From NCBI GenBank assembly GCA_018398765.1, contig JAHBMJ010005797.1, forward strand, positions 15,001-38,452: a stretch of DNA of 23,452 bases, written 5' to 3'. The notes under the pieces were generated by a model that was not told the DNA's origin, searched no databases, and saw only the letters and a program-made list of their open reading frames with translations. A program made the translations under genes and the position numbers. This document shows, piece by piece, positions 150 to 3,100 of this stretch; the first letter of the stretch is position 1, and each line of letters starts with the position of its first letter. The DNA is from Chromera velia. Its lineage: Eukaryota; Sar; Chromeraceae.

Positions 150-3100
150 CTGCATGCCGAAATTAAGGCACCAACAGGCGAAGAGGCAAAGGGATAGCAT
201 GCACAAGTCAAATCAAGCGACGGTCATGCAACGAGGAGCCGGAAAACATACGTCAGGCAGAGAGGGAGGGAGACAAACAGTAGCCCCATGCAATTAAAAG
301 TTTCTGACACAAACCATGCACGGAAAGGAAGATGTGCTGACCGATGCCATCCCTGTCGCCGTCTTCCTGGTCACCTCCAGGAATCGGGGGGGGGTTTGCA
401 ATGGTCGGGCAATTGTCAATTTCGTCTGGAACGCCGTCGCCGTCCTGATCGGGCTGCAAACAAAGAGAAAGAAGATGAGGAAGGAAGACGCAGTTAAGTG
501 AAGACCGGGCGAAGAGAGAGAGCGTCATGGGCTCATAAATGTTCAAGATTTCTGCATACACATGCAAGCTAAAACCCTGTATGACAACAAACAGCCATGC
601 ATGTGCAAATACATGATACACAAAGACCACTGAGTTCGCGGGATTGACAAAACCTGGTCACAAAAAGATCTTTCTTTCACCTGGGTATTGCATGGGATCA
701 TTCCGGAAAAGCAAGCTTCATTGGCATTGCACTCCGGTTATGCATGCCCAGCGTCTCCCTGAAAGGGCAAAACATAATGATGAACACGCACTGCCAGCCC
801 TCATGCGACGAGAGAGTCAGGTCACGAGCGTAGATTGACAAAGATGCCTTCACATTGAGAGCAGAAAGGCTTAATTCACCGAAGACAGCTGTAAAAAATA
901 AAAGAAAATTAAGTTGTCTGTCGATCGTGCGGCCGGTCGAAGAAGAAACTGACCGGGCAAACCGGAGAGACCTCAAACCTCGTTGCAAATGCCTGCCACA
1001 CACACACACACACACACACACACACAGAGGGAGGCCATGTTCGCACTGTCTGGTGCAAATCTGCAGATCAGGCAGATGTGCTTGATCCACAGTCGTGCAA
1101 ATGCTCATCACGGATAGCAGCATGCCTCTCTGCATTGCTTTTTCAGTCCAGACGGACAGTAAATAAAAATAGAGGCGTGTGGGAGAGAAAAAGGGGGAAG
1201 GAAGAGACAAACCCCGCCAAGCAGCAGAGCAGACACAGTCAGTCGTTTGAAGAGAAAGCCGGAAATCAGCACAGACGGGGGAATCTGCGTCGAAGATGGT
1301 GCATTGTGGCAGTCGATTGGGCAAGTGAGAAGGAGAAGAAGACTTAATTCCTTCCAACAAGTTGAACTGACGGAGGACACGGCGAACTCCCGATAGAATG
1401 CCTGCAATAAAACAAACAAAACAAAAAGGCAAACATACACGGGAACAGACTATACCAGCAGACGACGTTTCTGCATGGGGAACTGAATGTAACGGCTCAT
1501 CAACCGAGAAAAACAGAAAAGGGGTCGACAGACAAATGTGCTGATAAGAAAAGAGCCACTGGATGGCAGAATTTCTGAAAGGCTGAAACAACTGTATGAA
1601 GAGGAAGCGCGAAGGCAAAACAAAAGAATGAATCGTGGAGCTCAGCAGGGACCAAATGAAGAACTGCTCAGGCAACGAGAGTCTGGTTGAGTCCAGAAAA
1701 CAAGCAGGTTGAAGACGAGGACACTCAACAACCGACCGGGGAGCGGGCAAACTCTCGGAAGAATGCCTGCAATACAGCGCGATCAGGGGGGTGGGACACG
1801 GTCGACAAGAGAGCACTTGGTGGGCATGGCCGCTTCTCTGTTTCCATGGTATCAATATTATAATAACGACAGACAGACACACAGCGCTCCAAGGTGACAG
1901 GACCAGCGACGATCGGGTGTCAAATTATTCATTCTGGAACAGGTGAACAGAAGAAAATGGAAATCGGAATAAATGCGCAAGACCAGGAAACAACGGATAC
2001 AAGTGTCACTCTCAGGTGGACAAAAGACTGAATTCCTTCAAGCTGGCATGCGACAGGCCTACCTCGGATACCCCACACTCCTCGGCAAAAGCCTTGATCT
2101 CCGCCTCCCGCAAAGAATCAGGGATGCGGTCGTCGTCTTCGTCGTCTGCTGTCTCTATGGCAAATCCACGAATTTCACTCACACCGAACAGGGACCCATC
2201 AAAAAGAACCCCAGAACCCTCATCCTCCAACCCCAAAGGCGACCCCTTCTGGTCCCGAATGGCAATTCGTGCATACCGAATCTGGTTACATGCCGAGTCG
2301 CTCCAGTAGAGAATTCCGCCGAAGCTGTCGACTTGGAGGTCTGTAATCACGGGCGAGGCGCCGCTCGGGCAGGTGGTGTATTGGACTACAGTCTCCACAG
2401 CTGCCGGGTTATCGAACGGGAACCGTCTGATCAGTCCTCTGGGAGAGGGGACGACTGGGTCCCCTCCATTGACTGCTGCGTAAATAAACCTGCTTCTCGC
2501 GTCAAAAACCAAACCGTTTGCGGGACTCTGAGACTGGCCCAGAGCAAAAGGACAGTTATAAGGAGCCCCACTGATCCCCACTCGACAGACACCCCCCTGC
2601 ATACCCTCTCCGATCCCGAAGTAGACAATGCCGTCGTCCCTGTTGAATGCCACCGTCAACATGTTGATGAGGCGATTCGTCTCAAGGATCCGTTCGTTTT
2701 GACGCCTGGGGCTGGAATCCAGGAATCGCCACAAGTAGTCCACGTCAAAGCTGGAGGCAGCGTCGGGGATAAATGAGTTGAGAGGGAATGATATGATCTC
2801 TCTCTCAGACGCCAAAAAACCCCGACCCGAAGAAGGGTCTACAGCGATTCCAGCAGGGCTTCCATCAGACCCCAGCGTTAGGCAAAGGACACCCTCAGGT
2901 CTTGTTGTGGCTGTCACATCTTCTAAGGTGGACAGACGCACCACACAGTTGCTTCCTCGAAGAGTCACATACACGTTGTTGTTTTGTCTGTCGAGTGCAA
3001 CGCCCCGGGGCATCCCTTCTTCTGCGCTCCTTGAGAGGGGGTCAGAGAGGAATCCGTACTTGGCAGGCGCCTCGGAGGGCCGGTTGGCGTTCCACCTCAG

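Follow-up and report, generated by a model that had tools for sequence, protein, structure and literature searches.

Organization of the locus

The window analysed here is a 23 452 nt stretch of Chromera velia DNA (contig JAHBMJ010005797.1, positions 15 001 to 38 452). Its genome gave 58 matches to the light-harvesting family, as expected of a eukaryote with plastids, and one of these proteins matched several LHC types in the PDB, including fucoxanthin and peridinin ones. Its minus strand carries a gene in which a long propeller exon is followed by exons with calcium repeats (Table 1). The upstream exons include a part that we take to be lectin-like; a Pfam scan of these exons gave no match for the lectin or Cys-rich parts. 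The TSP_3 Pfam match of the sole calcium-repeat exon scanned alone (window 4164-4322) scored 19.1 bits, which is below the curated cut-off of 25, and such exons are therefore termed TSP3-like. A long (CTGT)n microsatellite (window ~5890-5670, minus strand) lies directly upstream of the lectin-like exon.

The propeller sequence contains LYWSD and gave a Pfam NHL match of 22.8 bits (cut-off 20). The best PDB matches of its AlphaFold model (mean pLDDT 82.9) were the LRP6 propellers (Foldseek E 3e-12, TM by query ~0.6). Of the best 50 among 1440 Foldseek matches, 48 carry LRP, megalin, LDLR or nidogen in the title and two, 3sov and 8ctg, carry none of these; TM by query was 0.49-0.60. As modelled, the exon has the fold of a YWTD β-propeller. 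Its 3' part encodes half a TSP3-like calcium repeat (DDEDDDRIPD), after which the sequence departs from that of other modules and ends in ten codons that we call unit 0.

A search of the same genome with the 356-residue propeller translation gave eight other matches, seven full and one partial. The propeller exon at C3377:10729-11808 is 63% identical to that of the window and defines a sister gene; it is the only one of the seven full matches that shares the unit-0 end, as AFAQECGVSE. At the same place, the other six full modules end in ordinary calcium-repeat sequence, and within 3 kb downstream of them no AG-GCNTTY site encodes such a unit. The YWTD-like modules form an array, with five on C3377 (10729-25660), two full and one partial on C3869 (3597-18130) and one near the end of C3749 (66485-67594). 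At C3869:9855-9998 (minus strand) only the final propeller part was matched, within a 1753-codon open frame. Certain propeller modules appear to have partners on another contig, as duplication of multi-propeller genes would explain. A search for prokaryotic relatives of the propeller yielded 11 pattern stretches, none of which was confirmed.

Table 1. Features of the window gene and of its sister gene on C3377 (pS and pN are for sister against window units)
Feature	Position	Strand	Sequence	Details
Upstream exons, introns included	5632-3524	minus		Lectin-like, Cys-rich and TSP3-like (by eye); colinear tblastn matches, C3377:7700-10481
Propeller exon	3133-2063	minus		1071 nt; phase 0 at both ends; YWTD-type β-propeller (predicted)
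Unit 0	2092-2063	minus	AFAEECGVSE	Final ten codons of the propeller exon
Intron element	2039-2024	minus	GAAGGAATTCAGTCTT	Follows the propeller exon; matched twice in the genome, here and after mini-exon 2
Mini-exon 1	1766-1737	minus	AFFREFARSP	30 nt; TTGCAG acceptor, CCG^GTCGGT donor
Mini-exon 2	1401-1372	minus	AFYREFAVSS	30 nt; TTGCAG acceptor, TCC^GTCAGT donor
Intron element	1354-1339	minus	GAAGGAATTAAGTCTT	After mini-exon 2; the other genome-wide match
Mini-exon 3	992-954	minus	AFATRFEVSPVCP	39 nt; GGCAG acceptor, CCG^GTCAGT donor
Next exon, TSP3-like calcium repeat	453-342	minus	PDQDGDGVPDEIDNCP...	Starts in phase 0, ends in phase 1; sister exon EDRDGDSVPDELDNCP
Following TSP3-like exon	149-81	minus	GDACDNCKIRANEDQSDIDGDGFG	69 nt; sister match at about C3377:13930-14055
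Sister unit 1	C3377:12306-12335		AFFRSFAQSP	pS 0.46, pN 0.16
Sister unit 2	C3377:12717-12746		AFYREFAISS	pS 0.73, pN 0.07
Sister unit 3	C3377:13099-13137		SFADEFEVGRFCP	pS 0.80, pN 0.32

Candidate mini-exons in the intron after the propeller exon

The initial annotation had placed two 30 nt units in the intron that follows the propeller exon, and we reproduced their coordinates, their frame, the TTGCAG acceptors and the GTCGGT and GTCAGT donors. The pyrimidine tract reported before both units is, by eye, strong before 1401 but weak before 1766. Mini-exon 3 is an additional unit that the earlier reading had missed. The three mini-exons encode 10, 10 and 13 amino acids, are in phase 0 on either side and adjoin the calcium-repeat exon, a neighbour that had been proposed for the first two. 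With lengths of 30, 30 and 39 nt they fall within the limit of 51 nt or less that one definition sets for micro-exons (PMC6600660).

The 1609 nt window intron was scanned for stop-free intervals of the form CAG...GT[AC][AG]G with a length of 27-60 nt divisible by three. Exactly three intervals were found, at the coordinates of the three mini-exons; the sister intron gave the three sister units and one overlapping interval. Dinucleotide-shuffled window introns contained a mean of 0.40 such intervals, and three or more occurred in 1 of 400. When the criteria were relaxed (any phase, 18-60 nt, GTN[AG]G) and the scan was extended to the whole array, it returned 303 exon-like intervals, as against 305 in the reversed sequence used as control. 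Splice-type signals alone thus prove nothing, and it is conservation that does. The same counts speak for the reading that the units never enter the mRNA, being relics within the intron or resembling exons by chance, as do the shortness of each unit and the fact that unit 3 is not significant by DNA alone.

The GTCRG donor is ordinary in the array: the 34 putative donors that follow TSP3-like exon ends include 19 starting with GTC, most often as GTCGGT (8) or GTCAGT (7). All eight acceptors found before GDxCD exons end in TGCAG.

A fourth candidate at ~735-685 (CNANEACFSGMIPCNTQ, phase 0, CAG^GTGAAA) was rejected. No tblastn match covers it in the sister locus, and its phase-0 frame hits a stop when read from the better acceptor. 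The window intron also contains a stop-free run of 408 codons (1924-698, minus strand) in a frame different from that of the mini-exons. None of 500 shuffles reached this length (mean 132, maximum 365), and the run in the sister intron is only 107 codons long. Having been picked after the fact, it perhaps reflects composition plus chance.

Conservation of the units in the sister gene

We checked conservation of the units on one paralogue from the same genome, the sister gene, and all three were kept. The sister units match those of the window in order, length and phase, and each has an AG acceptor and a GTCAG donor. Because both genes sit in one genome, this is conservation between paralogues, not between species. 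A tblastn search with reading-frame pieces of the window against the sister locus lists units 1-3 with E-values of 5e-4, 3e-4 and 4e-3, the first of which is flattered since its alignment also extends through a simple repeat.

Pooled over the three unit pairs, 16.5 of 24.5 synonymous sites (pS 0.67) and 14.5 of 74.5 nonsynonymous sites (pN 0.19) differ. The propeller exon is alike in this respect (pS 0.70 and pN 0.24 over 356 aligned codons). Third codon positions hold 18 of the 31 unit differences (hypergeometric P = 6e-4). Judged by these substitutions, the mini-exons evolve as coding sequence.

The two introns were also compared as DNA in 30 nt windows; this comparison omitted low-complexity windows and the final 3 nt of the sister intron. 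The best matches (25, 25 and 24 of 30) all fall in units 1 and 2, and the maximum in 100 shuffled pairs was 23 of 30. One of the 25/30 matches joins window unit 1 to sister unit 2, so that DNA alone separates these two units poorly. Protein scores do separate them: the own pair scored 43 against 33 with the other unit for unit 1, and 48 against 29 for unit 2. The best DNA matches of unit 3 between the genes (21 and 20 of 30) lie within the shuffle range, and this unit consequently rests on its protein match (score 38), its odd shared length, its phase and its splice sites. The best protein score in 400 shuffles of the window intron was 7. Outside the units, no other 30 nt stretch of the intron rose above the shuffle maximum in this one paralogue pair, a comparison in which shorter elements could be missed.

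With all units joined, the segment from the end part of the propeller exon up to DNCP comprises 77 residues in both genes, 55 of them identical, and aligns without gaps and with identical cysteine spacing. We conclude from the trio shared with the sister gene that the three mini-exons are very probably real coding exons. The coding-type substitution pattern and the protein-level shuffle control argue against relics or chance look-alikes, a reading to which we give almost no credence.

Relationship among the units

The earlier observation that the mini-exons resemble the last codons of the propeller exon held up against background. Unit 0 scored 46 against units 1-3 in the window gene and 43 in the sister gene (background maxima 37 and 31), and 0 of 2728 background 10-mers scored as high in either gene. 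The corresponding DNA similarity is weak, with 15-18 of 30 positions shared in the window gene and 13-15 in the sister gene. Within the genes, unit 1 scored 33 and 28 against unit 2, where the background maxima were 17 and 16. Unit 3 against units 1 and 2 together gave 39 in the window gene, a score that 0 of 2728 background 10-mers reached, but only 19 in the sister gene, where 5 of 2728 did so; against unit 0 alone it gave 16 in each gene, a value attained by 1 of 2728. By these scores, units 0-3 probably form one series, of which unit 3 is the most diverged. Tandem exon duplication is recognized by similar adjacent exons in one gene; units 1 and 2 clearly show this and unit 3, being more diverged, less so. 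By sequence, tandem duplication is a likely origin of the mini-exons.

The initial annotation had suggested that the end of an exon was duplicated together with the start of its intron. The first half of this proposal agrees with tandem mini-exons related to the propeller exon end; behind co-copying of the intron start there is only one 15/16 match, confined to the window gene. Shared intron sequence is indeed present after both donors, but it had been slightly misquoted, the common part being GAAGGAATTNAGTCTT. This sequence occurs twice in the genome, both times inside the window intron. The match of 15/16 between the two copies of the element exceeds the maximum of 13 in 150 simple shuffles, and within 120 nt of the sister donors no counterpart of GAAGGAATTNAGTCTT was found. 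The element could be a remnant left by copying, or simply something local to this intron.

Genome-wide, the pattern of units 1 and 2 was found at seven places, four of which are these units; the others lie on C229, C237 and C3894. The reversed pattern, used as control, had no match. Searching at E up to 10 with a 78-residue query of the joined units yielded 12 matches; not one of them spans all units as an intronless copy would. When pairs were scanned across the array, the unit pairs scored 48, 43 and 38, and several others among the best 40 pairs scored higher, up to 69. Going by position only, we read these as stretches copied recently or as pieces of larger exons.

Predicted splicing of the mini-exons

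By coordinates, the introns between the exons measure 296-500 nt in the window gene and 192-497 nt in the sister gene. Each unit begins and ends in phase 0, so that including all of them preserves the frame and sets the cysteines of units 0 and 3 apart by 35 residues. We consider it probable that three tandem-duplicated micro-exons are spliced together between the propeller exon and the next calcium-repeat exon. A unit of roughly ten codons, which also forms the end of the propeller exon, would have been tandemly duplicated to give micro-exons of 30, 30 and 39 nt, and these would join in phase 0 between the two larger exons. With all three included, the protein would gain 33 residues and carry four related units between two conserved cysteines, with a pattern like A-F-x-x-x-[F/C]-x-x-S across the run. 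Routine inclusion of all three would be the simplest reading and the best fit. The conserved cysteine of unit 0 has its likely partner only in unit 3, and such pairing would make unit 3 hard to skip.

The segment might form a short, partly helical spacer from the YWTD propeller to the calcium-repeat stalk. The last predicted helix of the model, EAEIKAFAEE (residues 342-351, low confidence), reaches the start of unit 0; hydrophobic moments, calculated at 100 degrees, gave a mixed picture (0.18-0.71). Together these observations lend the helical spacer weak support.

The alternative that one unit enters each mRNA, as in insect Dscam, had been raised under the term mutually exclusive exons. Similar tandem exons are the classic substrate of such splicing (PMC9013439). 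Here, however, neither the frame, given symmetric units, nor the introns of 296-500 nt would impose exclusion, and unit 3 differs in length and carries the cysteine. In the rest of the intron, no stretch exceeded the shuffle maximum in a comparison of 30 nt windows, which could miss shorter elements. All of this speaks against exclusive use of the units, which we regard as highly improbable.

Units 1 and 2 might instead be cassettes, optional beside a required unit 3, so that splicing would determine how long a spacer separates the propeller from the calcium repeats. Any subset of the units stays in frame owing to their symmetric phase 0, and by arithmetic the cysteines would stand 15 residues apart without units 1 and 2 as against 35 with them. 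Units 1 and 2 are nevertheless no less conserved than unit 3 (pN 0.16 and 0.07 against 0.32), and a conserved 30 nt intron stretch of possible regulatory role was not found. We view such cassettes as possible, if on balance unlikely.

About as unlikely in our view is a splice-tunable spacer in which zero to three units would set the distance and angle between propeller and stalk, in up to eight forms. If this were true, each micro-exon would be one structural repeat of 10-13 residues, and a plastid-bearing eukaryote would combine an LDLR-like propeller with a calcium-sensitive stalk in a protein of extracellular type. Optional units would mean that spacer length is set by splicing outside animals, something that, to our knowledge, is rare.

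Comparison with known systems

Gene finders easily miss exons of this kind. It was the comparison of two diverged paralogous introns that made them convincing, and such a comparison could be applied genome-wide. Among the best few matches in the openly licensed literature, we found no published account of these mini-exons.

In collagen and in the PEVK region of titin, short protein repeats are encoded singly or a few at a time by individual exons. The gene described here is alike in having an exon per repeat, but the repeat is another one, there are three units and the protein is unrelated. The micro-exon genes of Schistosoma are reported to consist of short exons (3-81 bp) and to have secreted products (PMC10526429). 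Short exons separated by longer introns are common to that description and to our gene. Here, however, three micro-exons stand beside a propeller exon of 1071 nt, so that the gene, in the part placed here, is not made of short exons, although the other exon placed at 149-81 also has only 69 nt.

Tandem exon duplication is a known phenomenon (PMC9013439). As characterized in that source, it involves neighbouring similar exons in one gene, as found here with compatible phases; the present units differ in being just 30-39 nt long and in having as their proposed source the end of a large exon, not a whole exon. With the Dscam1-type exclusive clusters treated there they share tandem exon copies, but we see no sign of single choice. 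Tandem exon duplication and micro-exon genes are already known; this instance is new and well supported, and it provides a clear case of micro-exons seemingly born by duplication of a very small coding unit and then kept while synonymous sites became heavily diverged.
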